Positions 23,180 to 51,867 of a stretch of 64,000 nucleotides of DNA are shown piece by piece. Made by a program: the position numbers and the translations under genes. The notes below the pieces were generated by a model. The model made no database searches. It saw only the letters and a program-made list of their open reading frames with translations, and was not told the origin of the DNA. Position 1 is the stretch's first letter. Each line of letters begins with the position of its first letter. Origin of the DNA: Anastatus disparis (lineage: Eukaryota > Arthropoda > Insecta > Hymenoptera > Eupelmidae); assembly GCA_017163975.1 (NCBI GenBank), contig JAFFSR010000280.1, positions 992,001-1,056,000 on the forward strand. The letters are read 5' to 3'.

Positions 23180-24014
23180 TTAATCTTTATTTTCTTTGTT
23201 ATGATAGCCTTGTAAAAGTTCTACAAAAGGCACTCTCTCTCTGTCGATTAGCTCTGTATCTATTATGTTGTCAACTCTTAGTGTAGGTGGTCCTGGAGAA
23301 AATCTTTCTACGATTCCTGTAACGAAGACAGACTGCTCTTTTTCTAAAGTCAAATTAGTGGAATCAAAATATAATTTTAATTCTATTTTATTCACACAAT
23401 CTGTAAGTGAACCAATAGTACATTCGTAGTCACAATTTTTATGTTTTTTGGGGACAGACTTGATAATTCCTTCTATCTCTGAAATAATAAATAGAACAAA
23501 TATTAGTTAAATTATATCATACAAAAGTAAATAAAACACTTATAAAAAATTATGTAAAAATTGGTATTTACTAATTTTTTTATTGATTTTAGAATAGGCT
23601 TCTGTTATAGTGACTTCTTCTGCAACTTGAGTATCGTGTGTTTCTTTAAAGGATCCTACTACCTCGATTGTGGAATTTTCTTTAATTAGTAGTTCAAACT
23701 CTACATTTCCACTGTTATATACTTTATTTTTAATTGCTGAGGCTTTCGCAGAACCAATATAAACAATCTGCAATTTATAATAAATATGAAATATTCATAT
23801 AAATGTATATTTTAATTTTCATAATGATGTATAGATTTCATAATTATTTACATTGCCCATTTCTTTGACGTTTTTTAGTAAATGAGTTTTTTCGTTCCAT
23901 CCTATAACTTGAACCTCTCGTCCTTGGTTGTTATTGATGACGAATTTCAAAAACATCGATGATTTGGGCGAATGAAAATTATTATTGATTTTCGTGACAT
24001 AACCTACGATATCA
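23180..24014 (-). CDS. RPA70-like OB-fold protein, copy 2 (5' part missing)
   Basis: Minus-strand exons 24014-23852, 23767-23572 and 23478-23180 have GT/AG ends. They encode an OB-like block (DIVGYVTKI...EVQVIGWNEK), a second (IVYIGSAKAS...STIEVVGSF) and a third (EGIIKSVPKK...KEQSVFVTGIVERF), ending KENKD. The blocks align one to one with copy 1, for example VQVIGW with VQVLIW and NSTIEVV with NSTIRLV. The TLTDCV/SLTDCV element is also shared. The exons are intact. The acidic first exon of copy 1 has no counterpart here. Upstream of 24014 the sequence is a fragment of a different gene family, so this copy is either 5'-truncated or starts elsewhere. Predicted role: ssDNA binding, inferred from fold only. 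Confidence 0.55.
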
Positions 24015-24019
24015 CTAAA

Positions 24020-25158: not shown

Positions 25159-25221
25159 ACCTTCATCAATTTTATTCTTGCTTCGGTAATTTCTAAATTT
25201 ACTATTACAATCTTCATGATG

Positions 25222-26216
25222 ACTGAGAAAAAAATTTCATCAGATCAACCAAAATATTATTGATTCAACAGATCTGCTGTTAATCTGACAGAATTCTTTT
25301 GATTTAACAGAATTTGTGCAGTTGAAATAGCCCGAATACGATCGTGCTGCCAATTTAACAGCACGGCTGTTGATATAATTGAATAACAGTTAACATAAAA
25401 AAACTTAAGTCAAAATAAAAGTATGACTTACATTTCAACAAAATTTTATGAATTGAATCAATAAAATGTGCATGCTTAAAATAACTGATGAATTATTTCA
25501 ATACAAATGTTTCAATTCAATTATATCAACAGCCCTACTGTTGATATAATTGAATAACAGTTAACATAAAAAAACATAAGTCAAAATAAAATATTTATTA
25601 TTTATGTCGTTGATAAATTTATTTTATAAAGATTTTTGTTATTCAATAAGTATTTTTAAATCTCCCACTTTTCAAAACAGCTACGTTTCGATAGTACAAT
25701 AATAGATGGCGTATTTCTTCTAACCCGCAAGTGGTGAGATTGCACGTTAGTTAGTATATAACAACGAACGAATTTATCCACTGTATGTATAAATGCGATG
25801 CGATGCATATCGATTATTAGCGAGCGATGTTAGATTTTATTTGTAAATATCAATAGTGTAGTATGATATATTTAAGAAAATGTTAAAAAATTTCACTTAA
25901 GAATTTGTACATAATGATCATTGTTTATAGTATGGATTATGTGTTAATTAATATCTAGAAATTGGAACACTGTGTGAGCTGTGAGTTTCTACTAAATAAA
26001 AAAGTTTTTATCATCTTTAAAACTTATTTGATTGACACAATAAAATGTAACAGCTATTTTGACTTACTTTGCTGTTAAATTAAAGTTAATTTTAAATTGA
26101 ATCAATATTACGATATCCATCAAATTAACAGAACTCGTCTGTTAGATGAATAGAATATTTCATCGTGGTATATTAACAGAAGGATTCAGTTGATACAATC
26201 ATATTTTTTTCTTAGT
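25222..26216. mobile_element. MITE with ACTGAGAAAAAAAT termini
   Basis: The left end ACTGAGAAAAAAATTTCATC and the inverted right end ACTAAGAAAAAAATATGATTG bound about 1 kb rich in TTAACAGAA and CTGTTAAT motifs. A direct repeat lies inside: TGTTGATATAATTGAATAAC at 25368 and again at 25549. No ORF. Target duplication not resolved. Confidence 0.5.
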
Positions 26217-31654: not shown

Positions 31655-33037
31655 TTAGACTCGAGAGTCGAAAAAAGTAGTTTCCAGAGAATGTCTATAT
31701 GTATGTATGTGTATGTGTGTGTATATGTATTCATTACGTCAATTAGATCTCGAAAAGTACTCGACAGATTCCCTTCAAATTTTGCATACAATTTATTTTT
31801 TTAGCTAACTGATGCGGAAGCTATTGAAAACTGGTTTTCTTGGAGTAGTTTTAATCCTAGAACAATTAAAAAAATTTTTTTTTTATTTTTATTTTTACTT
31901 TATTTTGTATTTTATGTTAAGTACTCGATGGGTTTGCTCTAAAATTTGCATGAAAATTATTTGCGACTACCAAAAGAAGAAAAACTTCTGAATACTGATT
32001 TTCTTAGTGTAGTTTTAAACTTACCAGGAGAGGCTATGAGCTTCGGGTCACAGATCTTGGTGAAACTTTGAGATATGTTTTTAGGTACCAAAATATGAGT
32101 AAAGCCAGAGCGGTACGGTCTAACGCTTCGAAAAACTGAAATTATAGACGTTTTCAGTCTTATTTGAAGAAAAATGTAAAAAAAAGCTCCTAATTGAAGT
32201 GTGAATAATCCAGTCTAGAAATGTCTTTAATAAATCAACAGAAACTAAAATAAAAGTGCAGAAAGCAAGCTTCAATTTGCCGTTTTTAGAATTGAAAAAT
32301 AATAATTAGAACTAGAGATATGTTCGTTCAAAGTTAAGAAGCAAGAAAGTACCAAAAATCACAAAATCACTGTCCTTTAGAATTTAGGACTTTTAGAATC
32401 GAAATTATTTTCAAAATTTTTTAAATTTTCTAAAATTGTAACTACGCTAAGAAGATTAGTTTTCAAAAGTTTGTTTTCTTCAGACAATAGCGAATTGATT
32501 GTATACAAATTTTGGAGAAAATTTATCGAATGATTTACGCAAAATAAAAGATAAATGAAAAATGAAAATTTTTTGAAAATTCGCAAACGACTCTAAAATT
32601 ATAATTGCGCTGAGAAAATTAGTTTTTAAAAGCTTGTTTTTTAGACAGTAGTAAATAACTTGCATACAAATTTTGAAGCAAATCCATCGAATAGTTTACG
32701 TAAAAAAAAAGAAAAATGAAAAAGGGAAATTTTTTTGAAAATTTTAAAAATGCTCTAGAATTAAAACTAAGCTAAAAAAATCAGTTTTCAAAAGTTTTTC
32801 TTTTTATGGCAATTGCAAAGAATTTTCATGCGAATTTTTAAGCAAATTCATCGAGTAGTTTGCGACAAATACAAAAAAAAATTTTTTTTTTTAATGGCTC
32901 TAGAAAAAACTACGCTAAGAAAACCAATTTTCAGTAGCTTCCTTCCCCCCAGTTAGACAAAAAAATAAATTGTATGCAAAACTGGAAGCAAATCCATCGA
33001 GTAGTACTCAAGATAAAATTGGCGTAACGAACACACA

Positions 33038-33641: not shown

Positions 33642-34765
33642 TCAAATAAATGTGATAGATATATTTATTATTACCTATAATGCGGTTATGAAGTAGCTAA
33701 GTCATTTATTAAATATTAATTAAATATATAAAGATGAAAAAGATGCTTTTGTAATTTTAAATAATGAGGGATTTTTAAACTCTTATTACCAATAATCGTA
33801 TCTAAAAATTCCAGAATATTTAAATTCTTTCAATCCTTCCAGTTAATTACATTTGAGAAAATTTTATTGTAATGTTTATAAGAAACATAAGTATAATGAA
33901 GGTTCATGCAGTAGTGCGAGATTGCAAATTTTAGATTTTTCTAATCATTTATTAAAATGTAAAATTTTGACGGGTGGTAAGGCAAAAGATAAAATTTTTC
34001 TAAACCGAAAATTAATATTAAATTATTGTAACGTAGTAATACTGGGATAAGGTAGTAAAAGGTTAAAAATTATAAGGAAACAAATTTTCTTAAAATAAAA
34101 CTCTATTCAATATTCTAATTCAAGATTTGTACAAGTGAGCGTGTTGAGCTCCGAATACAGACTGACTAAAGGTAGTTCTTACAATTATCATGAAGAGAAG
34201 AATACGTCTCCTAAGCCAGGCCCTCTTTTTCTCGAATTTTGTAAAACATTTTCTAATTGGTGGAAAAATTTCAGTTAATAATTGAACTAAATAAATGCTG
34301 GGTTTTCCCAAATCTTAAAATTCTTTATTATTGCATCATAAACAACCCGAGCGGCAAGTCATAAGCAACATATGCATGACCGTCAATAAATGTCTTAGTT
34401 TTATTACGGTTTTCTAAATTGTTACTTTTTCAAATAATTTACCTGGCTTAGGAGATTATCCTTTAACAGAAAATTATGAATTTTCCGTAAATTGTAAACG
34501 TAAAATAAAATTGGTAGCAATTTTTAAGTGTAAGATTTTAACCAAGAACACGTTTCTTAATTATAGGCGACCAGCATAAAAATGGCTTACTGTACTTATA
34601 CGTCTTTTCCTTTTTATAAATAAAAATATCAAATGTTCTCAATGTTTTTACTATAATTTCTTTATAGCATTATTTTATTTACTTTTTTCCTTCTTTGACT
34701 GTGCTTAATTTATATAGCTTTGTAGCGACTCGAACTGACGATGTCTGTCAATTCGTGCCGCTTAC
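33642..34765. other. AT-rich non-coding DNA
   Basis: No gene supported. CTCCTAAGCCAGG at 34199 is found inverted at 34443-34456 (CCTGGCTTAGGAG), suggesting an old foldback remnant at about 34120-34490. Confidence 0.4.
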
Positions 34766-34977
34766 CTCGACACCCGGAGTCTTATAACCAGGGCTTACCC
34801 CGGCGAGGCTGTAACCATTTACCTCGACACTCGGAGTCTTGTAATCAAGACTCGCCCCTGCGAGGTTCTCATAAATTGCCTCGACACTCGGAACCCTGAA
34901 GACTCACCTCGGTGAGGCTGTTATTATTTACCTCGACACTCGGAATCTTGTGATCAAGATTCACCCCGGCGAGGGCG
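34766..34977. repeat. Minisatellite, about 4 units of 50-65 bp
   Basis: Units begin CCTCGACACTCGGA and end CGAGG, so each can fold into a hairpin with CCTCG and CGAGG ends. GC-rich, starting about 440 bp left of the Polinton. Confidence 0.8.
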
Positions 34978-35207
34978 CTATTTCCAGGCCATGGGCGCAC
35001 CCATGCACAGAAGCACTGCTCCAATTTCAATTTCTTTTTGTTATTTTTCTAATTTTTATTTGGTACTATTTTGTTCAAATTAAATTATTAAATTTCAGTC
35101 GATTATTGATTTTATTCAATAATTCATTCATTTATTTTCTTTGAATTATTCATTTTTCATTGTCCTTCATTTTATTATATATAATAATATAATAATTTTT
35201 ATATAAA

Positions 35208-35275
35208 AGTAGATAAGCTATAGGCATACTGGATCATGTTCCTTCTGGATCACCCCCTCTCTCCTCAAAGTGATC
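35208..35275 (+). repeat. Polinton left terminal inverted repeat
   Basis: 68 bp identical to the reverse complement of 49384-49451. Preceded by the TATAAA duplication. Confidence 0.95.
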
Positions 35276-35640
35276 TAGAATGTAATGTGTGTATAAGCCC
35301 ATAAGAGTATCCCCTTCTTCGAGTGATTTTTTGAATTTTGGTTTTTATTTACGCCCATCCTTCCCTACTCCATGTGATCGAGAATGTAATGTGTGTATAA
35401 GCCCATAAGAGTATCCCCTTCTTCGAGTGATTTTTTGAATTTTGGTTTTTATTTACGCCCACCCTTCCCTACTCCATGTGATCGAGAATCCGATGTGTGT
35501 ATAAGCACATAAGAGTATCCCCTTCTCCGTGTGATTTTTTGAATTTCAGTATTTTGTTCACGCCCACCCTTCCCTACTCCATGTGATTTAGAATCCAATA
35601 TGTGTATAAACCCATAAGAGTTACCTTTTTTTGTTTGATT
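35270..35640 (+). repeat. 104-bp tandem repeats inside the Polinton left end
   Basis: GTGATC(T/G)AGAAT starts at 35270, 35374 and 35478, with a diverged start at 35582. Each unit carries TGTGTATAAGCCCATAAGAG and ACGCCCACCCTTCCCTACTC. The first unit overlaps the end of the inverted repeat. Confidence 0.9.
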
Positions 35641-37325
35641 TGTAGGTGGCCCCATACGGTAGGGAGTCCCAAGATGTTTTTTTCTTTTGAAAGATTAATG
35701 TTTACGATTGCATGTTTTCCTTTTTTTCATCTCTATGACTTTTTTTCTTTAAGCCACCTTCTTTTGATCGATAGATATTTTTCCTTTGGTCAAGGAATAT
35801 TTTTCCTTATCTTTTACAAATAAGAGTTCTCTTTTTTTTTTTTTAAACAGGATGAAAAAAGATAGCTGACCCTTATAATAAATTTTTTTCTCAAAAAAGA
35901 TTTTCTTTCAAAAAGATAAAGACAGTATTATATCTTAAAGATTGCATGATTCATTATTTTCATGCACCTGTGACTTAAAAAAGAACACACACACAGTGTA
36001 CTGCATTAAGAGAAAGGACATTCTTTTCCTTCTCTCCTAAAAGCTGGTAAATTTTTTGTGCAACGTTCAAGAAAATGCATAGTGGGCAGCGCTATAAAAA
36101 AAGACTCTCCATCCGCCGAAAAAACTTTATGTTTGCTAGTGACCCTTTCGCTTCCTCGCAGCGCCACTTAGTCGGCGCAATCAGTGTGCTGAAAACGGAC
36201 TCTGATTACTCCGATAATCTTAATGCAAAGACTCTCCATCCACAGAAAAATTTTACGTTTGCTAGTGACCCTTTCTCTTTCGCTTTCCCGCAGCGCCACT
36301 TAGTCGGTACAGTCAGTGTGCCAAAAAACGGACTCTGATTGCTCCGATAATCTTAATGCAATCGGCGCTTTACGCAATGCTGAAGGATACATGCGGCGCC
36401 TAATGTCTTTGGGTGCAGGTATACACAGAAAACCCTCGGTCTCGTCATTGTTTTACCACTGCATGTTTTTTTCTTTTTCATCTTTATGACAGCTTCTTTA
36501 ACCCACATGCTTCTGATCGATAGATATTTTCCCTTTGGTCACTTTCACATTACTTTACTATTTAAAGTCACTTGTTTTCATTTTGTTGGAAAGAGATCTT
36601 TTTTTTTTCCTTTTCGTAAAAATATGTTTTCTTTTACTGAGAAAAGAAACCTTTTTTTTTGGTTTTCATGTTTATAATCTTACAATCTTTTTTCTTTCAA
36701 AATTGAAACTCTTATTGTGCCCATTCTATATCCATGTATTAAGTTAAAAAAAAAATAAGGTTATTGGTGAATTTTTTTCTTTTCAGAAAAGGTTTTCTTG
36801 ACAGGTTTATATTTTTGAAAGTCACTTGTTATCTTATTTTATCTTTTTTTTTGAGAAAAAAGGTCTTTTACTCTTTTCCTAAAACGATATATTTTATGTC
36901 AAGCAATTCCCCTCTTACTTTTTTAAGATTGGACGATGGAAAATAGCTCAGTTTTCACTGGTTAAACTAAAAGATGATAGTAACTCCGCCTCTAACTTTT
37001 TTAAGATTGGACGATGGAAAATCGCTCAATCCTCATTGGTTAAAACTAAGAAATGATTCTGATAGGTTAAAAAAGGTAAAAAATTCATCCCTATCCGAGA
37101 AAACCTCTCTTTTTTCTGAAAAACTTGCACTCCGTTTTACTATTGGTTAGTTAATTGAATTTTCCATTTCCCCTTATGTTAACTTTACCTTTAAAAAGGT
37201 CTGAAGTTTTCTGGATGAGCATACTTCGTCAGAGGAGTCGTGAGTGTACATAGTCATCGGGACTAAACTTTACTAATCGTGAAAGTTTGTGTTTGTGAAA
37301 GGTTATTTTAAATAAAAGAAAAAAA
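35641..37325 (+). other. Polinton left non-coding region with duplications; polymerase promoter
   Basis: No gene. Direct duplications are 35707-35800 with 36462-36545 (TTGATCGATAGATATTTT.CC core), 36102-36225 with 36226-36362 (GACTCTCCATCC...TTTGCTAGTGACCC), and 36903-36975 with 36987-37060 (TTTTTTAAGATTGGACGATG). CTTTAAAAAGG at 37190-37200 could serve as the TATA element for the polymerase gene, with the start of transcription roughly 30 bp later. Confidence 0.7.
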
Positions 37326-40300
37326 ATGTCTTCAATTAATTTCTTTGAACGTCTTGTGCAACTACTCCGTGTTACTTTACAAAATGTAAATGAACTGAAC
37401 AATACCGATCTCCATTATTGGATAGATATGTGCAATGGTAGTTTAGAGAAATTAAATGAAAAAATTGTCAATTCTGATCTTACAAGAGGAGAAAAGCAGA
37501 GATGTCAAACTTGTGTGTTACATCTTTCGGGTATTCAAGTTCAATTTGAACATCATCTTCAACGAGGAGGTAGTCTGCAATCTGAAGAAACAGAAGCTTC
37601 TGTTGAATGGCGAGATGTGCAGTCAGCTTTCGAAAACAGAATTAGAACTGGCGTAGTGATAAATATAAATCATGTGGATATTTTAAGTTTTTTAAACGAC
37701 GCCCAAGAAGTCTTTAAAGTACATGTACAGTCATGCTTAGAAGAATATAGTGCTCTGAAAGTGAATTCGGATTTCACCGCAGAATTTTCCATACAGAAAA
37801 GTAGTGAAGAATTGACAGATATTAAATATTTTACAACCACAAGTACTTCAATTTTCATGTCAACGAATCTAGAAGAATGGTTCAAAATAAATATCAAAGA
37901 TTCTATTTTGACACAGATAGAAGAATTTCAGGAAAAAGATTCTGGCTGGGCTCTAAAAAGTATTATAAGTCTGAGTATAAATATGAAAAAATATTCTCCG
38001 ATCAAGGGCAGTTCGTACATTCCTCTACCACCTTTTATACAAAAGAAAAAAGCATGTGTCAATGTTCGTAACAATGACAATCAATGTTTCAAGTATGCTA
38101 TCCTCTCAGCAATATATCCAAGTGAAACTAATACTAATAGAGTTAATCAATATAGCATGCATGAGAACAAGTTGAAATTTAATAACATAGAATTTCCAGT
38201 GATACTTAAAAATGTTCCAAAATTTGAAGAACTGAATAATATTTCAGTAAATGTGTACATGTTGAAGAAGTTTGGACAAAAGTTTGAAGTATCACCTTGC
38301 CACATTACATCGGATAAAAAGGAAAAGCATGTCAATCTACTCATCATCCAAGACTTTTACATCGATGAGTATGAAAAAGATAATCATTCTGATGATATTA
38401 GTTTACCCAAATACCACTACGTTTGGATAAAAAATATGTCTCGTTTTCTGAAATCTCAACTATCTAAGACACATGTAAAATCATTCCATCGTGAAAGATG
38501 TTTACAAGTCTTTTATAATGAAGAAAGATTGCAAGTTCATGAAAATGATTGTAAGAATTTGAATTATTGTCGAATTAATCTACCTGACTCGCAGAACAAT
38601 ATTCTGAAATTTGAAGATTATTATAAAAGCGAAAAAGTTCCTTTTATTATTTATGCTGATTTTGAATGTTTACTGAAGCCTACAATGAATGAGATTGCCT
38701 TCCAACTTCATGAAGCATATAGCATAGGATATTATATAAAATGTAGCTTTGATGACAGCTTATCTTTTTATAAGTCATATAGAAAAAATATCGAAGATGG
38801 ACAGACTCCTGCACAATGGTTTGTTCAAGAATTAAAATCAATCAGTGAGGAAATTGATAAACTCTACAAGAATCCGAAACCATTAAAACTTACGGATTTA
38901 GAAGAATTATCTTTCCAGAGGTCAACCATTTGTCACAAATGCCGAAAACTAATCCGTGATGAAGAACTCGCAGTACGAGATCACTGTCATCTCACAGGAC
39001 GGTAAGATATTAATTATAGTTATATTTCAATGAAAAAAAAATTTACTTTATCATGCAAATTTTTTTAAAATATCTATTTTTCTTACATTAGTTTCAGAGG
39101 TACAGCACATAATTCATGTAATTTGAATTACAAGTATTCAAAATTTATTCCTGTGGTTTTTCATAACCTCAATTACGATACACACTTCATTTTGAAAGAG
39201 ATAGCCACATCTTCATTGATGGGAGGACGAGTTACGCTATTGCCACATAATAAGGAAAAATATATTTCTTTTACAAAATACATAGATGGCAGTGACCTAA
39301 GTTTTAGATTCATAGATTCTTGGCGTTTTCTTCCTTCGTCATTAGAAAAACTTGCATCATACTTGGAAAATGTGCCGATATTGATAAAAGAGTTTCGAAC
39401 TGATGGATTTACAGATGAGAAAATTGATTTTCTCAAACGTAAAGGTATATTTCCATATGATTTTGTAGATGGATTGGATAAATTATTAGTTACGAAATTG
39501 CCAGAGAAAAATCAGTTTTATAACCAACTCACCGATTCTCATATTGCTGATGAAGACTATAAGCATGCTATTCAAGTCTGGAGTAAGTTCAATATAAGGA
39601 CATTAGGCGAGTATTCGGATTTATACTTAAAAACAGATGTTTTACTATTGGCGGATGTATTTGAAAGTTTTCGAGAAACATCTTTCAAAGCTTACGGTTT
39701 ATGTCCAGCTCACTTTTATACGTCTCCAGGCTTGACATTTTCAGCAGCGCTAAAAATGACGAAGGTAGAACTGGAGCTTCTTACAGATATAGGTTGATGT
39801 TCATTGAAGCAGGTATTCGGGGAGGAATAAGTCAATGCTGTAATCGCTATGCCAAGGCGAACAATCCATATATGGGCTCTCCGTATGATGAAAAACAGAA
39901 AATGAAAACACTTATGTACTTTGATATTAATAATCTTTATGGATGGGCAATGGTTCAATATTTGCCAGTCGGAAAATTCAAATGGGTAGAATATGAGACG
40001 AATTCAAACTTTTACAACGCACCGCCAGATTCAGTTATTGGATATATTGCTGAAGTAGATTTGGAGTATCCTGAGGAAATACACGATGCACATCGAGATT
40101 TTCCATTCTGCGCAGAGCATAGTGCGCCACATGGCTCGAAACAAAAGAAACTTCTCACTACTTTGAAGAACAAGGAGAGATATGTTATTTACTATCGAAC
40201 ACTCAGACAAGTGTTGGAAAATGGACTTCGACTGAAAAAAGTGCATAGAATTTTAAGTTTTGAGCAAAAGGCATGGCTTAAACCTTATGTGGAATTGAAT

Positions 40301-41596
40301 ACTCAAAAAAGAATGCAGGCTAAGAACGAATTGGAAAAACTTTTTTATAAATTGTTAATCAATGCTGTCTATGGAAAGTGCATTGAGCGAGAGCGGTCTC
40401 GAGTTGATGTCCGATTGGTAAATAAATTTACTGGTAGATATGGAGCAGAAGCACGCATAGCTCTACCAAATTTTCAGAGCTGTGCTATTTTTGATGAGAA
40501 TTTAGTTGCCATTCAAATGAAGAGAACGAGCATCACAATCAAGAAACCAATTTATGTTGGATTTTGCATTTTAGAATTATCAAAAACATTAGTTTATGAT
40601 TTTCATTATTCGTATATGAAAAAGCGAGTTGGAGACAAATGCAAACTTTTGTATACTGATACTGATAGTCTCATATACGAAGTTGAGGATGTTGACATGT
40701 ACAAAATAATGAAAGAGGACATACATAAATTTGATACTTCCGATTATGAAGAAAATAATCCGTTCGAAATTCCTCGAGTTAATAAGAAAGTTCCGGGTTT
40801 GATGAAAGACGAATGTAATGGTAAGATAATGACAGAATTTATAGGATTACGAAGCAAAATGTATAGTATTTCAATCGATGGAGGAGAAGTTATAAAGAAA
40901 GCCAAAGGTATAAAGTCCAGTGTTGTTAAAAAATCAATTACTTTTGAGGATTACCGAAGCTGTCTTCAGGATCTCACTATTATATACCATGAACAGTGCA
41001 ATATCCGTTCAAAATTGCATACTGTGCATACTGAAAAACAGAGAAAAATTGCTCTAAGTCCTCATGATGATAAGAGATTTTTATTGCCTGATAGTACAGA
41101 TACTTTACCTTGGGGACATTATAAAATTGAAGAGATACAGATGGCGCAAGCTGTACTTGAAGTAGAGAGGGAATATGCAAGAAAAATGGCTGCTGAAAAA
41201 AAAGAAAAAGAGCGGGAGGTAGAAATGAGGAGGGGAGATACACGAGTGGAAATTGATGCTACAGAGAATGAAAGAGAGAGGGAAATCGAGAGAAGGGATA
41301 AAGCAACCAATGAAAATAGTGCAGAGCGAGTGGGGATGTCACTTTATGAAGGCGAGCAAATTATCATTGAGTATGATGTGTTAGAGGAGTTCATGAATGA
41401 CTGGCATCCATCAATGGAGGGGGCAAGTTCCCAGGAAGGAGAAAAAAAGGATATATTACGAGTAGCAATGGAAAGGGCAGACATCGAAGTGGGGAATGGG
41501 CTATATCAACCAATGGACCACAATGAGGAGCGCATTCAAGTAATTGAAGAGCTTGAGGACGATCAACCTTGCACAAAGAAATCTAAAATCGACTAA
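37326..41596 (+). pseudogene. pPolB: Protein-primed type B DNA polymerase (pPolB), frameshifted
   Basis: Replicates the element by protein priming. The first exon (37326-39001) has the long Polinton N-terminal region (ACVNVRNNDNQCFKYAI), a Cys/His cluster (RERCLQVF...HENDC), exonuclease motif I (YADFEC, near residue 444) and a DHCHLTGR zinc-type motif. Exon 2, from 39092, carries Exo II (FHNLNYDT) and Exo III (YLKTDVLLLAD). After a frame change near 39790 the last part has motif A (YFDINNLYG, 39919), motif B (LLINAVYGK, about 40350) and motif C (YTDTDSL, 40654). Catalytic residues are kept. A single-base-type frameshift between 39780 and 39800 breaks the protein. The last roughly 150 residues form a charged, coiled-coil-like tail (KKEKEREVEMRRGD), unusual for the family. 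Calling it broken assumes no sequencing error. Confidence 0.9.
39002..39091 (+). other. Spliceosomal intron in pPolB
   Basis: A 90-bp AT-rich segment starts GTAAGATA and ends TTACATTAG. It sits within the codon for Arg of the conserved DHCHLTGR motif. Both flanks continue the polymerase in phase once it is removed, and it contains in-frame stops. Confidence 0.8.
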
Positions 41597-41711
41597 CTTT
41601 TTAAGTAAGTTACAATTTATTTTTTTACCAAAAAAAAAACATTATTTTTTTTCCATCAAAATTTTTCTCTAACAGAAATTTTAATTTTTTTTACTTTTTC
41701 TTGCTTTCAGA

Positions 41712-42011
41712 ATGGATTTATCTGCACTAAACAAGATTGCTGGAAGCGACTTCCTGCCAAGGAAGAAAGTCACAGACTTAGAAAAAGACCAGCAGTACAT
41801 GGTGACTGCACTGAAACAAGTCAAGACAAGATTTGGAACCAAGGTCGTAGCAGATTTCGACCAAAGCTTCCAAGTCTTTTTACCAGAGAAGATTTCATCT
41901 GCAATTCTAAAAGATGAAGAATTTTTCTACAATCTCTGTAATAATGCAAATAAACTGCGTTTGATTGCAATATACCTGGGAGGATCTTCTTTTAAATTCG
42001 ATCGGGCTTAA
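41712..42011 (+). CDS. 99-aa OB-like Polinton protein
   Basis: Short protein of the pattern KDQQYMVTALKQVKTRFGTKVV...FQVFLPEKI...IAIYLGG, with alternating beta strands that suggest an OB fold. Similar small proteins occur in insect Mavericks as I recall them, and an ssDNA-binding role beside the polymerase is plausible but inferred. The ATG follows directly after a TTTCTTGCTTTCAG acceptor-like site, and a GTAAGTTA donor-like site lies at about 41604, just past the polymerase stop. It could therefore be expressed from a spliced polymerase transcript. The frame is intact. Confidence 0.6.
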   Translation: MDLSALNKIAGSDFLPRKKVTDLEKDQQYMVTALKQVKTRFGTKVVADFDQSFQVFLPEKISSAILKDEEFFYNLCNNANKLRLIAIYLGGSSFKFDRA

Positions 42012-42294
42012 AATAAATAAAAATATAGTCGTCAAATTATTTTTCAAACTATTTATTGTAAATTGTACATAATAAGAATACATGAATAAATGAAAATTAT
42101 TAAACATTATATAATTGTTTTTATTTATCACCACCACTTATAATTATTATATTTATATTGAATCATAAAAAGAAAATTTTCAATAATAAAAATATTTTAT
42201 ACATAACTTAAATTAATGAACATAATAAAATTAAATTTTTTTTTCTTTTTTATTTATTACACTGAAATACGTTGTAAAATACATCTTAGCTTAT
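42012..42294. other. AT-rich convergent 3' spacer
   Basis: Separates the plus-strand polymerase block from the minus-strand integrase block; it must hold 3' ends for both. No gene. Confidence 0.5.
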
Positions 42295-43233
42295 TCAAAT
42301 AATCTCATTTTTATCCATCCAACTATTATGCTTGCTATTTAGACCTAACCACTTAACATATACACGTTTACCACTTTTCTTTAAAACTTTTTCTACCAAA
42401 TAAATTTCTGGATACATAGTTTTTTGAATTTCCGTTTCATAAAAGCCGCCAGAGACGGGTTCATCATAATAATCTTTTACGTGGTAAGTTATGGGATTGG
42501 TTTTTACAACTCTTGTTATTGTGCAAATTTCAGTTGACCAATTTGGTGTATAACCTTTTTCAAAAACTTGTTTTATCTTACTTATTCGCACTTTATCTCC
42601 TACTTTGAATTTTGGTTTTTTCACAGGTCTTTTTTCAGTTGGGTAATTTTTCTTGATTTCTTTTTCATTTACCTTCGTAACGTTTTCAGGCTCGATTCCT
42701 ATTGTCCGATGTTTTCTTGAATTGTATGCTTTCACTAACTCAGGCAGAATATCCAACCATTTATAACTTCCTTGTTTGCTGAATTCTAACCACATTGCAT
42801 TTTTTAAAGTTCTATTAAAGCGTTCACATATGCTTGCATGAAGATTACTATGTGAAGAGTAGTGATTTATCTTGTACTTTTTTATAAGATTCTGAAAGTT
42901 TGAATTGTAGAATTCTTTTCCTTGGTCAGTTTGTAAATTCGATGGCACCCGTTCTTGTTTTAATATTGACTTCATAGCTAGAGTAACATCATTGCCACTC
43001 TTAGATTTGACTGGTACAGCCCATGCATACTTTGAAAATATATCTATGACAGTTAGTAAGTAGCGAAAACCTTTGTTTTCCTTAAAATAAGGTATCATTT
43101 CTACAAGGTCAGCTTGCCAAGTCTCATCTAATCCGCGTATGTCATATTTTCTTCGCTTGTACCTTCGACGTGCTGGCTTGTGTAGCTCTTCAACTACTCT
43201 TTGACGTTCCATCTTAAACTTCAACTTTAGCAA
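42295..43233 (-). CDS. pINT: Polinton integrase (retroviral type, with chromodomain)
   Basis: 312 aa. An rve core holds Asp42 (TWQADLV), Asp103 (QTDQGKEF) and Glu138 (CERFNRTLK), the DDE triad of retroviral-type integrases that insert the element and make the 6-bp duplication. Upstream is the basic segment ELHKPARRRYKRRK. Downstream is an SH3-like segment (KFKVGDKVRI), then a C-terminal chromodomain (IYLVEKVLKK...YVKWLGL...NSWM, residues about 270-312), which may direct insertion to marked chromatin. The start overlaps the next ORF upstream by 20 bp, as in a compact viral operon-like array. The frame is intact and the triad complete, so activity is plausible. Confidence 0.93.
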   Translation of the reverse strand: MLKLKFKMERQRVVEELHKPARRRYKRRKYDIRGLDETWQADLVEMIPYFKENKGFRYLLTVIDIFSKYAWAVPVKSKSGNDVTLAMKSILKQERVPSNLQTDQGKEFYNSNFQNLIKKYKINHYSSHSNLHASICERFNRTLKNAMWLEFSKQGSYKWLDILPELVKAYNSRKHRTIGIEPENVTKVNEKEIKKNYPTEKRPVKKPKFKVGDKVRISKIKQVFEKGYTPNWSTEICTITRVVKTNPITYHVKDYYDEPVSGGFYETEIQKTMYPEIYLVEKVLKKSGKRVYVKWLGLNSKHNSWMDKNEII

Positions 43234-43657
43234 TATCCGATTGTCTATTCATTTCTTTAATTATATATTCAATACTTGCAAAATTTCGTTGAGTCATATC
43301 ATAGACATAAGTTAATTTTTCGTCTATTTCTGCTTTATATATTTCAACTTTGTTCTCATATTCTTGTATAGCTTTAGCAACTTCTATAATTTTAGAAGAT
43401 AAGTAATCAACTTCTTTCTGTAGGATATTATTTAGTGAATTCAAACTAATGGCATCATTTGGACCATTAGCCTCTCCAATATTGCACAGCCGCTTATTTT
43501 CTAAATCAAAATCACCATCTGATGTAACATTGAATCCAATACCTCGAGGACCACGACTCACTTGCGAGCCCTCAAGTTTTCTTCCAAACACATCGAGACT
43601 CATGATACTACTATTGATTTGAAAATTGTGTACGTCAATATATATGCCCAGCTTCAC
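43214..43657 (-). CDS. Polinton protein with fiber-like repeat motif
   Basis: 147 aa. Contains GPRGIGFNVTSDGDFDL, then NKRLCNIGEANGPNDAISL, followed by a helical, coiled-coil C-terminal half (SLNNILQKEVDYLSSKI...MNRQSDIAKVEV). The N-K-R-x-x-N-I/V...D-A-x-x-L pattern is the one seen in tail-fiber and spike proteins of phages and adenovirus-like elements, so a trimeric attachment role is possible. This is inference from motif pattern. It overlaps integrase (20 bp) and the next upstream ORF (23 bp). Confidence 0.6.
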   Translation of the reverse strand: MKLGIYIDVHNFQINSSIMSLDVFGRKLEGSQVSRGPRGIGFNVTSDGDFDLENKRLCNIGEANGPNDAISLNSLNNILQKEVDYLSSKIIEVAKAIQEYENKVEIYKAEIDEKLTYVYDMTQRNFASIEYIIKEMNRQSDIAKVEV

Positions 43658-44390
43658 GTAGTTCCTCTATGATTGATTGGATTTCATTGTTGTGATTATT
43701 ATTTCCAGCAGATCTTTCGGCTATTAATAATCGCAGTCTTTCGACAAGCTCATTCGGATCATCCCAGTAGACTAGATCTATGGAAGTATTCTTTTTTGCT
43801 ATTTTATATTTAGGTATGAGACCCCCTCCGCTGGTAGACATTCTACTACGATCACTGTGGAACATTGGTGCTATGATTTTTGAATATTTTCTACTCTTCG
43901 AAGAGCGTATATTCTCACTTTTGCTATGTCTTTTTCTATGGGCATTTGTTGCTTCCAGGATAATGCGATAGTTCTTGCGATCTGTTGTACTCAAAAGATT
44001 ATCATTTGGTTCTTTTTTGAAAAGCAATTCCATTAGACCACTGCTTTTAGGAAAACTTAAATCTTTCACTTTTATCATTTTATCATCAAATTGAATTTGT
44101 GAATCACCCATCATGTATACCCCACTGACTTTTCTCACTCCGTATATGTTATCGATTTTGCTGCGGCTTCCATTTAGCATTGATAAAAAGTCTGTCGGTT
44201 CAGTTTCTTTATGCGCAGATACAAATGGTGAATATATAGATTTGAATGATGAATTTGCAGAATTGAATGATGAATTCATCATTGTGCTATTTATCGGAGA
44301 AAAATCATCGCCATTAGAAGCATCATTATCAAACGCCGAACCCGAGTTATTAATATCGTTTACAATATAACTTGATTCATCAAATCTCAA
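43635..44390 (-). CDS. Conserved Polinton protein, C-terminal part (YWDDPNEL family)
   Basis: 251 aa. A low-complexity Ser/Asn-rich N-terminus is followed by IDNIYGVRKV, IQFDDKMIKV, RKNYRIILEATNA and the conserved end LVYWDDPNELVERLRLLIAE...IIEELREAG. I know this family from insect Maverick-associated loci, where it normally continues in one frame from the segment encoded at 44380-44649. The two ORFs overlap by 11 bp in different frames at an A9 run (minus strand, 44394-44402). Function unknown; position among capsid genes suggests a structural role. Confidence 0.65.
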   Translation of the reverse strand: MRFDESSYIVNDINNSGSAFDNDASNGDDFSPINSTMMNSSFNSANSSFKSIYSPFVSAHKETEPTDFLSMLNGSRSKIDNIYGVRKVSGVYMMGDSQIQFDDKMIKVKDLSFPKSSGLMELLFKKEPNDNLLSTTDRKNYRIILEATNAHRKRHSKSENIRSSKSRKYSKIIAPMFHSDRSRMSTSGGGLIPKYKIAKKNTSIDLVYWDDPNELVERLRLLIAERSAGNNNHNNEIQSIIEELREAGHIY

Positions 44391-44649
44391 TCTTTTTTTT
44401 TGCCGATTTTCTGTTACTGTCTATGGCCGAAATGTGATTAGAACGTGACACACTTTCAGTTGTCGAATCGACAAGCTTTTCAAGTGGTGTAATAACTGGT
44501 TTTAAAGTATCACCAATAACCTTTTCAAAATCATCTCTCTCCTTTTTTAACAAAGAGTATTTTTTTTTAATAGCCTCGCGTGCTCGTAAGAGCTCGCTAA
44601 GAACATTTTTTTCTTTCTTAAAGTCTGACAAGATGTTGTCTACAATCAA
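44380..44649 (-). CDS. Conserved Polinton protein, N-terminal part
   Basis: 89 aa. Coiled-coil-like: LSELLRAREAIKKKYSLLKK, then VIGDTLKPVITPLEKLV. Ends in a Lys run coded by the A9 tract, where the frame passes to the ORF at 43635-44390. Most likely the first part of the same protein, separated by a one-base change, programmed slippage or a sequencing error. It lies 17 bp downstream of the ATPase stop. Confidence 0.6.
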   Translation of the reverse strand: MIVDNILSDFKKEKNVLSELLRAREAIKKKYSLLKKERDDFEKVIGDTLKPVITPLEKLVDSTTESVSRSNHISAIDSNRKSAKKKIEI

Positions 44650-44666
44650 ACTGCAAAGATTAAGAT

Positions 44667-45362
44667 TTATACTTCCTTTTTAATGGCAAAACAGTCAAAT
44701 CCTTTTCTATATCTACCATCATTCATTGCTCTATCTTTGTCAATAACAACAAATCCATACTTGTCATTCTTCCAGCATTCTGTACAAAGATTTCGAAATT
44801 CATTTAAAGTTAAGTCAGTATTCACATGGTCTTCATAGATATGTTTAAGATTAACATCATCTTGACGATAAATTACCATCAAATTAATATTGTCCCTGAT
44901 GAGATGTTTCGGTATATGAGCATATGACTGACATAGATAAAAGCTATCTACACTTTTGTGTCTCCCCATACAGAAAAAAGCTCTGACGTTATCCTGCTTC
45001 TCACAAGCCACATCATCAAAAATCATAATTGAATTAGGTAGGGCTTCATCTGGAGACACTACAGATGCATGTTCACTGAACGGTAGATATGATATACCTT
45101 CAATTGGTTCTAAAACTTTTTGAAGAAATTGGTATTTCAGTTGATTTAAGGATTTAGAGTATACATACAAATTTTCAAATCTAAGACCATTAGGGTGTGT
45201 AATTAGAGCTAATAAACTATTAGTTTTTCCACAGTTCGATGGGCCACAAAATACTGCTCGTATATTATCTGGAAGTAACTCTCCATGTCGCTTTTTTCTT
45301 TTCGTTTTCTCAAAATCAAAGTTGCCGACGGGAAGTTTGACGTTCTGCTCAGTAAAATCCAT
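44667..45362 (-). CDS. pATP: Polinton packaging ATPase (FtsK/HerA, A32-like)
   Basis: 231 aa. Walker A is FCGPSNCGKTNSLLALI (residues about 36-52) and Walker B is SIMIFDDVACE (about 108-118). It belongs to the genome-packaging ATPase family shared by Polintons, virophages and poxvirus A32. The product would pump element DNA into capsids. The frame is intact. It starts 99 bp from the divergent plus-strand ORF at 45462, so this interval is probably a bidirectional promoter. Confidence 0.93.
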   Translation of the reverse strand: MDFTEQNVKLPVGNFDFEKTKRKKRHGELLPDNIRAVFCGPSNCGKTNSLLALITHPNGLRFENLYVYSKSLNQLKYQFLQKVLEPIEGISYLPFSEHASVVSPDEALPNSIMIFDDVACEKQDNVRAFFCMGRHKSVDSFYLCQSYAHIPKHLIRDNINLMVIYRQDDVNLKHIYEDHVNTDLTLNEFRNLCTECWKNDKYGFVVIDKDRAMNDGRYRKGFDCFAIKKEV

Positions 45363-45461
45363 GTTTACGTAACAAAGTCAAATCTAAGATTGACCTTTTC
45401 TAAATACAAACGCTTGTTTTATATTTTTGATCATCAGTTGTAAATCAACACTCGAAGAGAG

Positions 45462-45716
45462 ATGCTCGTACACAAATCACAGAAGCACCCTAAGGGTAAA
45501 GGGTTACTTGATAAAGTAATCAATAACTTACCTATTGAAATGCATATTCCTGGATATCAATATTGTGGTCCCGGAACAAAACTGAAAAAGCGTCTAAAAA
45601 GAGGTGATACAGGTATCAATCCACTTGATCAAGCATGCAAAGAACATGACATATCTTATTCTGATAAAAATGCTGATCGAAAAGTCGCTGACATGAAGCT
45701 CGCTGATAAAGCTTAG
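45462..45716 (+). pseudogene. PLA2-like (parvovirus VP1-type) module, ended by TAG
   Basis: 84 codons. Residues about 25-65 carry the calcium-loop pattern YQYCGPGT and the catalytic pair ACKEHDISYS of secreted and viral phospholipase A2 domains, which help virions leave endosomes in other viruses. The frame ends at TAG (45714-45716), but the same frame continues with protein-like sequence (QRVRAKNASL). It meets a TGA near 45789 and continues again into the protease ORF at 45807 (345 bp downstream, same phase). So an ancestral single gene 45462-46607 has two nonsense changes. Confidence 0.8.
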
Positions 45717-45806
45717 CAGCGTGTTAGAGCCAAAAATGCAAGTCTTAGCGAAAAAGCAACTGCTTTTGCTGTTGCAAATGCTATGAAATGAAAAGGAAAG
45801 ACAGGA

Positions 45807-46607
45807 ATGGGTGTAAAATGGAGTAAATTAGTAACTGCAAGTAAAAAATCATTAAAACCAAGTAAACATTCTCGCAAAGTTATTCAGTCGGCTTTAAAAG
45901 GTGCACGTGAAGCTCTCAAGATCGTTGGCGGTAAGAAAAAAATTATCATTCCACGTATTCTACCTGTTCCATCAAAAATAGGTGGCGCTCTGCCTTTTCT
46001 CATACGATTGTTCGCAGCACTAAGTGCAACTGGTGCTCTGGCTGGAGGAGCTGCTGGAATAGCTAATGCAGTAAATGAGGCTAAAGCTGCACAGAAAAAT
46101 TATGAAGAAAGTAAGAGACATAATAAAACTATGGAAGCTATTGCTCTAGGAAAAGGTCTCCATCTTAAACCATATAAAACTGGAATGGGATTATTTATGA
46201 AACCTCATATCGGTCATGGTCAAGTTAAAAAAAAAAACTTCGATTTAACTTTGCCAAATCGTGCACTGACTGACTATGATCTTATAAAGTATGCTCGTAT
46301 GATGCAAATCCCATATTTTCGAGGTGTTTTCATGAGAAATAATCTACCTTCTGATGGCCCATGGCATAACGAATCTGATATAGTTAACTTAGATGATTTT
46401 CAAAACAAAGGCACTCACTGGGTATGTTATCGAAAACGAGGTTCTGAAGTGATTCATTTTGATAGTTTTGGTGATCTTAAATCCCCTATAGATCTCATGT
46501 TATATTTTAACGTGGAAGAAGTGAAATACAACTATAAAAGATATCAAAATTTTGACTCATTTATTTGTGGACATCTTTGTCTTCAATTCTTGTGTGAAAG
46601 ACTATAA
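45807..46607 (+). CDS. pPRO: Adenain-like cysteine protease with hydrophobic N-terminal region
   Basis: 266 aa as read from this ATG. A hydrophobic Gly/Ala segment (LIRLFAALSATGALAGGAAG, about residues 65-90) could insert in membrane. Then follow a linker (MEAIALGKGL) and the protease core: His204 (GTHWVCY), Asp219 (HFDSFG) and Cys254 (FICGHLCL), the order His-Asp-Cys of adenovirus-type maturation proteases. It would process capsid proteins. It is the C-terminal half of the broken PLA2-protease frame starting at 45462. Whether it is translated alone from this ATG is unknown. Confidence 0.88.
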   Translation: MGVKWSKLVTASKKSLKPSKHSRKVIQSALKGAREALKIVGGKKKIIIPRILPVPSKIGGALPFLIRLFAALSATGALAGGAAGIANAVNEAKAAQKNYEESKRHNKTMEAIALGKGLHLKPYKTGMGLFMKPHIGHGQVKKKNFDLTLPNRALTDYDLIKYARMMQIPYFRGVFMRNNLPSDGPWHNESDIVNLDDFQNKGTHWVCYRKRGSEVIHFDSFGDLKSPIDLMLYFNVEEVKYNYKRYQNFDSFICGHLCLQFLCERL

Positions 46608-46652
46608 AAGAAGAGTTTTCAAACAAGCAGGATCATTCTTTTTCAAACAGTC

Positions 46653-47342
46653 ATGGAAGATAGCTTCACTTTGAGTCTTTCAGGCAAATCTTCTATCTTA
46701 GAAGCGCAATATTTTCCTTCAATAGAACTACCACAGCATAAGAATTTTGTTTTGGGTTTAGTTGAACTTTTAACATTCAACTCGATTCCCAATGTTGACG
46801 ATTCGAATAATAAACTTCATATAAACGGAGAGAAGATTATTACTATTCCTACTGGCAGTTATGAAATTGATGCTATTAATCAATTTTTGCAAAAAGATTT
46901 GAAATCTAAAGACATCGAGTTTTCCTTGAAAGCTAACAACAATACTCTCAGAAGTGAAATTTATTGCAGCCATCAGATAGATCTTAGACCTCGCGATTCA
47001 ATAGGCAGTCTTCTCGGTTTCACTCGTCGCGTTCTTCATGAAGACATTCATCACAGCTCTGATTTACCTGTGAAGATATTGAAAATAAACGCACTCAGAG
47101 TAGAGTGTAATATTACTACAGGTGCTTACATCAACGACAAAAAAGTTCACACGATCCATGAATTTTTCCCAAAAGTTCCTCCAGGATATAAAATCATAGA
47201 AGTTCCATCGCATGTCATATATTTACCACTCAATGTTAAGAGTATAGATCATCTTCAAATCCGAATCGTTGATCAAGACGGAAATTTAGTGAATTTCCGA
47301 GGAAAGGAAATTACTGTTAGACTTCACATAAAATCTGTATAA
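46653..47342 (+). CDS. mCP: Minor capsid protein (penton-like)
   Basis: 229 aa, intact. Beta-rich with no signal peptide; begins MEDSFTLSLSGKSS. The conserved RPRDSIGSLLGF and QIRIVDQDG patterns fit the single jelly-roll minor capsid protein of Polintons. Position directly before the major capsid gene (stop and next ATG overlap by one base at 47342) supports this. Role: capsid vertices. Confidence 0.8.
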   Translation: MEDSFTLSLSGKSSILEAQYFPSIELPQHKNFVLGLVELLTFNSIPNVDDSNNKLHINGEKIITIPTGSYEIDAINQFLQKDLKSKDIEFSLKANNNTLRSEIYCSHQIDLRPRDSIGSLLGFTRRVLHEDIHHSSDLPVKILKINALRVECNITTGAYINDKKVHTIHEFFPKVPPGYKIIEVPSHVIYLPLNVKSIDHLQIRIVDQDGNLVNFRGKEITVRLHIKSV

Positions 47343-48760
47343 TGGGAATCGTTTATAATTCAAGTGTGCATATAAGTCAGCCATCATGTCAACCCACCAT
47401 CAGTCGTCCAAAGGTACTCAAACCGTTAACACGGAAGAGCATCCAGTTTCTCAAAAGCATAGGTCTCAAAGTACGTGGAAAAAGATTAATTGTATCATTC
47501 TCTGCTGCTTTCAGAAAAATGGACGAAATTCTAAGCATTCAATCAGGTGTCGCATTCGATGAGTCTATTGCTCATTATGAGGTTCACGCACATCAACCAT
47601 ACTCCACATTAAGTTTCAATAACAGTGATGAAATCCGTATTTCTATTCAGCATCAAGATTTATGCCTCTTACCATCATGTAGTTACATCCATGTATGTGG
47701 AAAATTACAAAAACCGGATGGACAAGCACTAACTAAAACTAATTTCGTTAACAATGGCATTTGTCATCTGTTTGATGAAATTCGATATGAACTTAATGCT
47801 GTAGAGGTAGATAAAAGTAAAAATGTTGGTTTGAGTAGTCTCATGAAGGGATGCACTTCATTTAATCCAAATCAGACTCTAACATTAGAAAATGCAGGCT
47901 GGCTTGGTGTTGAAGAAGCAAACGAAACAATTGTAGATGATCATGGAAATTTTGACGTTTCTATCCCTCTAAGTATGATTTTAGGCTTCGCAGAAGATTA
48001 CAAGAAAATTGTTGTTAATATGAAGCATGAACTCATTCTCACAAGATCAAGAAATGACCTGAATGCTATAATACAGGAAGGTACTGTAGCCAACAATGCA
48101 ACCACATATGAACCTTATCAAATAAAAATATCAAAGATAGAGTGGTTAATGACATATGTTATTGCATCAGATAAACAAAAAATCCAGCTGTTAAATTTCA
48201 TTGGCAAAGATAATCCTATTTCTATGAGTTTTCGTTCATGGGAGTTATTTGAATATCCTCTTCTTCCAACAACAAATAAACACGTCTGGACGGTAAAAAC
48301 TTCAAATCAATTGGAGAAACCACGTTTCGTGATTCTTGGATTACAATCGGGAAAAAAAGGTTCAAGATCTAAAAATGCCAGTCGCTTCGACCACTGTAAT
48401 ATTAGTAATGTGAGACTTTTCTTGAATTCGCAATATTATCCGTACAACAATCTCAATCTTGACATATCTAAGAATCAATTTGCTATTCTATATGATATGT
48501 ATGCTAATTTTCAGAAAAGCTATTACAGAAGAGATTCACTGCCATTGTTGACAAAGTCTCAGTTTATCAACTTTGAACCACTCATAGTTATTGACTGCTC
48601 ACGACAAAACGAATCTTTAAAGAGCGCTCCTGTCGATGTACGTCTAGAATTTGAGTCTCAAACTGACTTTCCAGCTAATACTTCAGCTTATTGCATGATC
48701 TTACACGATCGCATCGTTCAGTATAATCCTATTAGTGGAGATGTTCGGAAGCTTGTCTGA
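47342..48760 (+). CDS. MCP: Major capsid protein (double jelly-roll)
   Basis: 472 codons from the ATG at 47342. The conserved protein seems to start at the in-frame MDEILSIQSG (47519), preceded by an acceptor-like CTGCTTTCAG, so the first 59 residues may be a leader or non-coding. The body has DLCLLPSCSY, FDEIRYELNAVEVD, NVRLFLNSQYYPYNNLN and a C-terminal beta strand DVRLEFES, in the order seen in Polinton hexon-like proteins. No breaks. Trimers would build the icosahedral shell. Confidence 0.88.
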   Translation: MGIVYNSSVHISQPSCQPTISRPKVLKPLTRKSIQFLKSIGLKVRGKRLIVSFSAAFRKMDEILSIQSGVAFDESIAHYEVHAHQPYSTLSFNNSDEIRISIQHQDLCLLPSCSYIHVCGKLQKPDGQALTKTNFVNNGICHLFDEIRYELNAVEVDKSKNVGLSSLMKGCTSFNPNQTLTLENAGWLGVEEANETIVDDHGNFDVSIPLSMILGFAEDYKKIVVNMKHELILTRSRNDLNAIIQEGTVANNATTYEPYQIKISKIEWLMTYVIASDKQKIQLLNFIGKDNPISMSFRSWELFEYPLLPTTNKHVWTVKTSNQLEKPRFVILGLQSGKKGSRSKNASRFDHCNISNVRLFLNSQYYPYNNLNLDISKNQFAILYDMYANFQKSYYRRDSLPLLTKSQFINFEPLIVIDCSRQNESLKSAPVDVRLEFESQTDFPANTSAYCMILHDRIVQYNPISGDVRKLV

Positions 48761-48798
48761 ATTATCTTCACTTTACGTAAAAAAATTTATATTTCAAA

Positions 48799-49272
48799 AT
48801 GGAATATGCGGTAGACATGATTGGTTTTAAGCAAATGGGTGGTGAATATGTTCTAAAGGAAATAGCAATCATTCCTCTCAACGACAGTGGTGATCCCATT
48901 GTTCATCTGTTCAAAAAACCTTTTTCATGGAAAAGGCTTTCTGACGAATTACAAGAAGAAAACATTCGCCTCAAACATAATCACGGAATAGCTTGGAATA
49001 CTGATGGGCTTGACTACTCTCAAATTGCAAACTTACTCCGTGAACATTTACATAATGCTACAAAAATTTTGGTTCTGAATGAATTCAAACGTAAATGGCT
49101 GTTACGATTCAAGTTTCCTGCTTATAATATCAATCAATACGGCTATCCATCAAAACCATCTTTCAAGTGTGTTACTATATGCACAAACCATAATCCAATT
49201 TATAAAACTGTCTGTGCACTACACAATGTCAAACTCATGAAATTATTCTATCTCTCAGAAAATCATTTGTAA
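48799..49272 (+). CDS. Conserved Polinton terminal protein
   Basis: 157 aa, intact. Pattern: AVDMIGFKQMGGEYVLKEIAIIPL, then FKKPFSWKRL, KHNHGIAWNTDG and ILVLNEFKRKWL. The first block (D.xGF...KEIA) and the later (I)LVLNEFKRKWL and CALHN segments look like an exonuclease-type RNase H fold, but catalytic residues are not obvious. I recall similar proteins near capsid genes of insect Mavericks and adintovirus-like elements. Function unproven. Confidence 0.6.
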   Translation: MEYAVDMIGFKQMGGEYVLKEIAIIPLNDSGDPIVHLFKKPFSWKRLSDELQEENIRLKHNHGIAWNTDGLDYSQIANLLREHLHNATKILVLNEFKRKWLLRFKFPAYNINQYGYPSKPSFKCVTICTNHNPIYKTVCALHNVKLMKLFYLSENHL

Positions 49273-49311
49273 GAAAAAAAGACAAAAAAAAAAGAAAAAA
49301 AAAAGTAGTAG

Positions 49312-49383
49312 AAAACGCTATAGGCGTTCTGGATCACTTTCGGATTCTAGATCACTGAGGTGATCTACAATGCGTACTTTCTG
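49312..49383. repeat. Polinton right subterminal repeats
   Basis: Contains several GGATCACTTT and GATCACTGAGGTGATC motifs next to the inverted repeat, related to the GTGATC motif of the left 104-bp units. Confidence 0.6.
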
Positions 49384-49451
49384 GATCACTTTGAGGAGAG
49401 AGGGGGTGATCCAGAAGGAACATGATCCAGTATGCCTATAGCTTATCTACT
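49384..49451 (-). repeat. Polinton right terminal inverted repeat
   Basis: 68 bp, exact inverse of the left end, followed by the TATAAA duplication at 49452-49457. Confidence 0.95.
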
Positions 49452-49457
49452 TATAAA

Positions 49458-50703: not shown

Positions 50704-51797
50704 ATGTTTAATTTAGTGTTGTGGATTGAGGATAAAACTATAAGTTTAGTTAATGAAGAAGATCTTGATGAAAATGTAGAGAAGGGAAAAATCACATTCA
50801 TGCGATACACTGATAATAAGAGGTATCAAGCAAAAATTATTAAAAAAAGCAGTAAGTTTATAAATCACTTGAATAATATATAACTGACAATTTCTATGCC
50901 AAATACTAATTATTCTTTACTAAAAAAAATTAACAAACAAAATAATTTTAGATGATGAAGAATATTTGAAAAGACTTCTTACTGCTACAGAAGGCGATAT
51001 TATTGTGAGAAAGAGAGAAGAAAAAAAACAAGACGTATTATTGAAAAAATCTAATGCACTAAAAAAAGGAAAAATTATTTAAAAAATGTAGGCTGAAGGA
51101 TCTAAAAAAATGAATTTTCAATTAATGAAATCGCGCACGATTTTCTCAGAATCAAGTTCAGATGACGAAGATGAAAAAACGCTGCCAAGTGCTTTGGCGG
51201 AATGCTTTCTCATAGAGCTCTTTGAGTTTCATTAATTTTTTTATGTTTATTTAAATGTGATTTTAATATAAAAAATTGTCTAATATTAATATTTATTTAT
51301 AAATTTGTACTTTAAAAGAACGATGACAACGAAATTTCTAATCGTAACCACGCTAAGAAAGAAGATGAATGAAAAATAAAAATTTGTATGAAAATTTTCA
51401 AAATTTTCTTAAATTGAAACTGCACTGAGAAAATTAGTTTTCCCAAACTTGTTTTCTTCAGACAGTAGCAAATAACTTGCATACAAATTTTCGAGCAAAT
51501 CTATCAAATGGTTTTCGTAAAATAGAAAAATAATAAAAAATAACAACTTTTTTAAAAATTTTCAAAATGCTCTAAAATTAATAGTATGCCAAGAAAATCA
51601 GTTTTCAAATGTTTTTATTATTTTAACAGTAGCAAATAATTACTATACAAATTTTTAAACAAATTATTAGAGTAGTTTACGTAAGACCCAAAAGAAATGA
51701 AAAATTTTTTTAAAAAATTTTCAAAATTCTCTTAAATTAAAAGTGCGCTAAGAAAATAAGTTTTCCAAAGCTTGTTTTATTAAGGCAATAACGAATA

Positions 51798-51867
<70 letters not shown>

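Follow-up and report, generated by a model that had tools for sequence, protein, structure and literature searches.

We describe a mobile element in a window of 64,000 nucleotides from the hymenopteran Anastatus disparis (contig JAFFSR010000280.1, positions 992,001 to 1,056,000), the window being the whole stretch of DNA that was analysed and the coordinates below being counted from its first letter. The element, enclosed by two TATAAA target-site duplications (35202..35207 and 49452..49457), is very probably a Polinton/Maverick of the adintovirus type, and it belongs to a large family whose amplification is recent. We found that this family contains two lineages, A, which is that of the window, and B, which has another PolB and another right end, and that type-B elements share with the window, at about 98% identity, a cassette of about 6.6 kb reaching from the integrase to the capsid (42300..48900, limits approximate). 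From sequence comparison, the most economical history is one recent transfer of this integrase-to-capsid cassette between two Polinton lineages, both of which would then have spread.

The genome searched comprised 939 Mb in 399 contigs. A 30-mer of the capsid gene matched 540 sites with up to two mismatches and a 30-mer of PolB matched 235 sites, with no match for the reversed-pattern control in either case, these counts being those of sites and not of whole elements. The exact A-type PolB 30-mer was present within 14 kb upstream at 41 of 100 capsid sites among the matches listed and absent at 59, some of which may be A copies with a changed PolB 30-mer. PolB-less "capsid-only" derivatives were considered as the main cause of the difference between 540 and 235 and were rejected, since both of the copies examined, L060 and L061, two capsid copies without A-type PolB that were read over 8 kb upstream, carry a divergent PolB. 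Compared with the window per 200 bp, L061 exhibited an identity of 77.5-91.8% (mostly 78-84%) through PolB up to about 42.3 kb, and of 96-100% from the integrase onward. L060 and L061 are 99.5% identical across 7.7 kb, and the lineage B PolB, in these two copies, is about 80% identical to that of the window.

The other limit of the cassette was seen at the right ends of 30 capsid loci, of which 22 were window-like (A) and 8 of the other type (B). The B right ends diverge from the window from about 48.9 kb, except that L012 departs earlier, and the outermost 25 bp are still 96% identical in five of the eight. Capsid copies differed by 0.75% inside lineage A, by 0.71% inside B and by 1.51% from one lineage to the other, with three fixed differences. 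Ten further copies, six B-ended and four A-ended, were then read over 41.4-43.0 kb. All six B-ended copies showed the switch at about 42.3 kb and matched L061 at 97.5-99.5%, while none of the four A-ended copies did so, their identity to the window being 91-100% over this interval. The outer parts are therefore linked to each other, and what the two types have in common is a single block of about 6.6 kb. Among the eight B-ended loci, six were read across the switch, L012 is represented through L060 without a fine profile, and L029 was left out. In two B-ended copies, L075 and L081, the sequence preceding 42.0 kb (counted on the window) bears no relation to that of the window, which might reflect a third arrangement or a deletion.

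The family is large and its insertions are young. A 26-mer from the element end was found at 33 exact genome sites (control 0), and 20 ends picked by likeness to the terminal inverted repeat (TIR), two of which (L046 and L047) are both ends of one copy, had 20 distinct flanks, with A at the three outside-adjoining bases in 16, 15 and 17 of the 20. Both ends were available for seven other copies, whose lengths range from 5.9 to 18.6 kb, and in all of them the 6-bp duplications were perfect and differed from one copy to another. The shortest of them (G000:C225:8077969-8083827, ends L070 and L071), of 5.9 kb, is a short form that is perhaps non-autonomous. Divergence was measured on 14 right ends and the window, after dropping the left ends L047, L052 and L053 and the rearranged L046, L057 and L058. 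Private substitutions over 46100-49374 amounted to 0.18-0.92%, with a mean of 0.52% and a value of 0.46% for the window. The insect mutation rate is a few times 1e-9 per site and generation, and the mean private divergence would thus place the sampled insertions roughly one to two million generations ago. Open frames were found in 10 of 17 TIR-selected right ends for the capsid, in 9 of 17 for the penton and in 14 of 17 for a gene of 157 amino acids. The capsid was open in 27 of 30 copies top-ranked by likeness to the window capsid, a proportion that this ranking biases upward. A search for PolB copies, in which 70 out of 4722 first-look candidates were scored, 69 of them besides the window, gave 18 copies of the 69 in which PolB exon 2 runs for 843 codons or more with no stop. 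The original prediction had suggested a recent activity in this species and had proposed to search the whole genome with the end and the capsid gene; the sites, duplications, divergence and open frames so obtained all support it, and the opposite case, that all other copies would be old and broken, was not what we found.

We investigated also the selection acting on the right-hand genes in the same 15 right ends. The private changes are near neutral, with ratios of nonsynonymous to synonymous change (pN/pS) of 0.92 for capsid, 1.47 for penton and 0.79 for the 157-residue gene, and the shared changes gave lower values of 0.43, 0.36 and 0.13, respectively. Pooled, the private changes were 139 nonsynonymous to 36 synonymous, compared to 18 to 17 for the shared ones (Fisher p=0.0011). 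On these counts, decay of the copies seems to have been free once they were inserted, and the penton, capsid and 157-residue genes would have been retained in the lineage that spread. As the shared changes are few and non-independent, we take the contrast as a support and not as a proof.

By analogy with its family, the element would be copied as a linear, protein-primed DNA, which its integrase would insert into the host genome, with a stagger of 6 bp. Since packaging belongs to the cycle, the spreading lineage would have preserved working capsid genes, and A and B would have swapped the cassette while both were replicating in one cell. The shared block is most simply read as a recent exchange of the cassette between Polintons resident together, such as a virus-like cycle would permit. 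In its strongest form, to which we give a probability of about 0.35, the two lineages would be a living, recombining virus population in one germ line, in which a cassette of virion genes and integrase passed in one piece between different replication modules and both resulting forms were raised to high copy number by packaging. Several points weigh against the main reading of the element and its family. The evidence is that of genome sequence, the B copies read into PolB are the two mentioned above, the selection contrast depends on 35 shared, non-independent changes and weakens to p=0.056 with capsid and penton alone, and neither the ovarian tumour (OTU)-like part of PolB nor the protease was confirmed by any of the libraries scanned.

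The family might also be a pure transposon, with capsid genes as passengers and a spread inside the genome driven only by PolB and integrase, with help in trans, which we hold for possible but doubtful. The neutral private changes of the capsid genes agree with such a life, and so does the 5.9-kb copy, whose two ends and perfect duplication suggest that short forms may be moved in trans, unless this one was deleted after its insertion. The shared changes, however, look constrained in the penton, capsid and 157-residue genes, and the block passed between A and B includes virion genes. It appears unlikely that, instead of copying from resident elements, a free and infectious adintovirus entered the germ line repeatedly. 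This reading is favoured by the youth and mutual closeness of the copies and by close named relatives recorded as Megastigmus wasp adintovirus, but the hundreds of sites and the near-identical sub-lineages (L060 and L061) fit resident copying equally, and a scan of IMG/VR gave two pattern matches, none confirmed, and no free genome.

That no exchange took place, A and B deriving from one element with a faster-evolving PolB and a cassette held by selection, is very improbable. The cassette proteins are indeed conserved, but the contrast is found also where protein constraint fails to explain it, at third codon positions and in the spacer between penton and capsid. By frame arithmetic, third codon positions were identical to L061 at 63.1% in PolB, compared to 95.7% in the integrase, 94.8% in the ATPase, 97.8% in the PX-protease part and 96.5% in the penton, L012 matches the window at about 99-100% over the stretch with the penton-capsid spacer, and the identity changes as a step at about 42.3 kb. 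A long-dead fossil family, with a window copy preserved by chance, would account for the broken genes of this copy (at least two), but it is hardly credible in view of the mean private divergence, of the capsid frames open in both the top-ranked (biased) and the end-selected copies, and of the open PolB exons.

The window copy itself is structurally whole between its duplications, in agreement with the original prediction of a complete Polinton with both ends, an exact 6-bp TATAAA duplication and perfect inverted ends of 68 bp. The left TIR (35208..35284, plus strand) and the right one (49375..49451, minus strand) share a perfect run of 68 bp from the outside and 75 of 77 bp over the full arm, and the arms including the duplications are 84 nucleotides at 95% identity. 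A tandem array of a 104-bp unit in 3.4 copies (35270..35621, plus strand) adjoins the left end. From left to right, the genes are PolB on the plus strand, integrase, a small protein, a two-frame gene and ATPase on the minus strand, then a PLA2-PX-protease gene, penton, major capsid and the 157-residue protein on the plus strand. The full gene set that had been announced was recovered for PolB, integrase, ATPase, PLA2, penton and major capsid, all but the penton by Pfam matches above cut-off, the protease being left without Pfam or PDB match. The claim of few breaks did not hold, as the coding capacity is broken in at least two genes, PolB, whose frame is interrupted near 39.79 kb, and the PLA2-protease gene, split by an in-frame stop (45714-45716). 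With these interruptions, the window copy is not the intact source that it had been proposed to be. No bacterial-type cargo was found among the element open reading frames (ORFs) in the Pfam scans made, Rfam and tRNA scans found nothing, a phage scan gave no matches, and PHROGs gave matches to PolB and to a transposase-type integrase with nothing useful beyond.

The PolB gene consists of exon 1 (37326..39001, plus strand), an ORF of 559 residues with exonuclease and OTU-like motifs seen by eye and no Pfam match, an intron of 90 bp (39002..39091, plus strand) and exon 2 (39092..41596, plus strand). The gap at 39002-39091 was considered as damage and this was rejected, the borders being those of a canonical GT-AG intron, whose presence suggests nuclear transcription and splicing. 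In exon 2, the DNA_pol_B_2 domain was found above cut-off in both pieces of the frame (6.9e-12 and 1.9e-12, Pfam). The position of the break was deduced from the last PolB frame of the window: among the 69 other scored copies, 67 match it only from residue 27-52 onward and two along its whole length. In the N-terminal part, a D-N-x-C-F motif and a late histidine, recognised by eye, are what we take to be an OTU-like domain, for which the Pfam scan gave no match.

On the minus strand, the integrase (42295..43212) is an open frame with an rve core above cut-off (4.6e-15, Pfam) and a weak C-terminal chromodomain, the Chromo match at residues 282-311 of 312 scoring 20.9 bits, under the cut-off of 25.1 bits. 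The small protein (43214..43603) belongs to a narrow family with four relatives found, and showed a sub-threshold likeness (0.028) to the T7 tail-fibre N-terminal domain; it is possibly a Polinton fibre. The next gene (43635..44679) lies in two overlapping frames with no family assigned and is possibly broken. The last one (44667..45362) codes for a packaging-type ATPase (Pox_A32, 4.8e-08, above cut-off in Pfam).

The PLA2-PX-protease gene (45462..46607, plus strand) is a single frame of 381 residues in one other copy read. In a search for protease-bearing ORFs, where 144 of 4256 candidates were scored, the commonest open frame among the matches listed was of 387 codons, compared to 271 in the window. 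The 381-residue protein has an N-terminal PLA2 domain (2.8e-11, Pfam) with a weak likeness to parvovirus VP1 in the PDB (E=0.011), a middle part matching adenovirus core protein X far under cut-off, and a C-terminal H, D, C pattern, seen by eye, which is presumably that of an adenain-like protease; this part gave no protease match in Pfam or PDB. The penton or minor capsid gene (46653..47342, plus strand), assigned by homology, is 69% identical to a Megastigmus wasp adintovirus record that carries the name penton, and its profile against the PDB gave "structural protein VP2" at E=0.01, which is not convincing. The major capsid protein (47519..48760, plus strand) has 413 residues and the double jelly-roll (DJR) capsid domain PF21738 (4.1e-117, Pfam). 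A longer capsid ORF of 472 residues was rejected, relatives beginning at its codon 60, where the protein is taken to start, and a stop lying at codon 49 in 29 of 30 copies. The protein of 157 residues (48799..49272, plus strand) could be placed in no family, and the other PDB searches by sequence gave no matches.

The best capsid relatives, among 120 of 2447 matches listed, were a contig protein (80%), Nasonia (68%) and the Megastigmus wasp adintovirus hexon (67%), whose BLASTP match spans 88% of the long capsid ORF. In the capsid tree, the window pairs with the 80% contig protein with a support of 1.0, and the named members of the surrounding set are hymenopteran. The nearest named capsids, and a flanking gene read by eye, point to an insect host that is probably a chalcidoid wasp. 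The Megastigmus virus (nr TPA_asm records P0012 for the hexon and P0194 for the penton) is from another species and was compared on those two genes, and the Nasonia vitripennis Polintons (P0005, P0009 and others), with the same Pfam domain, on capsid proteins alone. Adintoviruses are defined by a PolB with an OTU-like domain at its N terminus, a hexon that BLASTP recognises and an integrase ending in a chromodomain (PMC11071296). Spodoptera Sf Maverick 1 and 2 have in common with the window element ATP, INT, PRO, POLB and a PLA2-bearing CAP ORF (PMC5803895), with PLA2 and protease as separate ORFs there, whereas they are joined in one frame here in the copy read. Vertebrate Mavericks resemble it in their 6-bp duplications, inverted ends, purifying selection on core genes and some intact copies, but have at most 38 intact copies per genome, with more defective ones (287 in one), and intronless ORFs (PMC8097293), compared to 540 capsid 30-mer sites, which is a different measure, and a PolB intron here. 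Many Mavericks are reported also in braconid wasps (PMC6035795), and young, proliferating ones in Curculio weevils, these last enclosing bacterial genes, unlike the window element in the scans made (PMC13419823). A literature search gave nothing recognised as the present case, and we make no claim of its being unpublished.

Around the element, three tandem arrays (13487-14201, 32429-32882 and 51368-51802), whose units measure 161-164 bp and whose consensus looks similar, form a dispersed satellite, and a 57-bp repeat in 3.8 copies (34762-34974) lies just outside the left end. Exon-like frames at 61215-63003 (plus strand) are, by eye, presumably those of an insect sigma-class glutathione S-transferase, and others at 20363-25236 (both strands) are what we assume, on the same basis, to be parts of replication protein A, perhaps of two related genes. 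Similar frames on opposite strands at 713-1003 (minus) and 4990-5268 (plus) are perhaps a duplicated host gene.

If the reading as a recombining virus population is true, Polintons would visibly exchange "bodies" and "engines" in recent times. The hundreds of capsid sites, the divergence of about half a percent, the open capsids, the selection contrast and the shared block make the question whether animal Polintons still move as viruses directly testable in this species. The re-pairings of PolB and hexon between alpha and beta adintoviruses are deep (PMC11071296), whereas the one here is recent and within one genome, and would illustrate at close range the module shuffling that deep comparisons give. 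The shared integrase-capsid cassette is the part most worth following.

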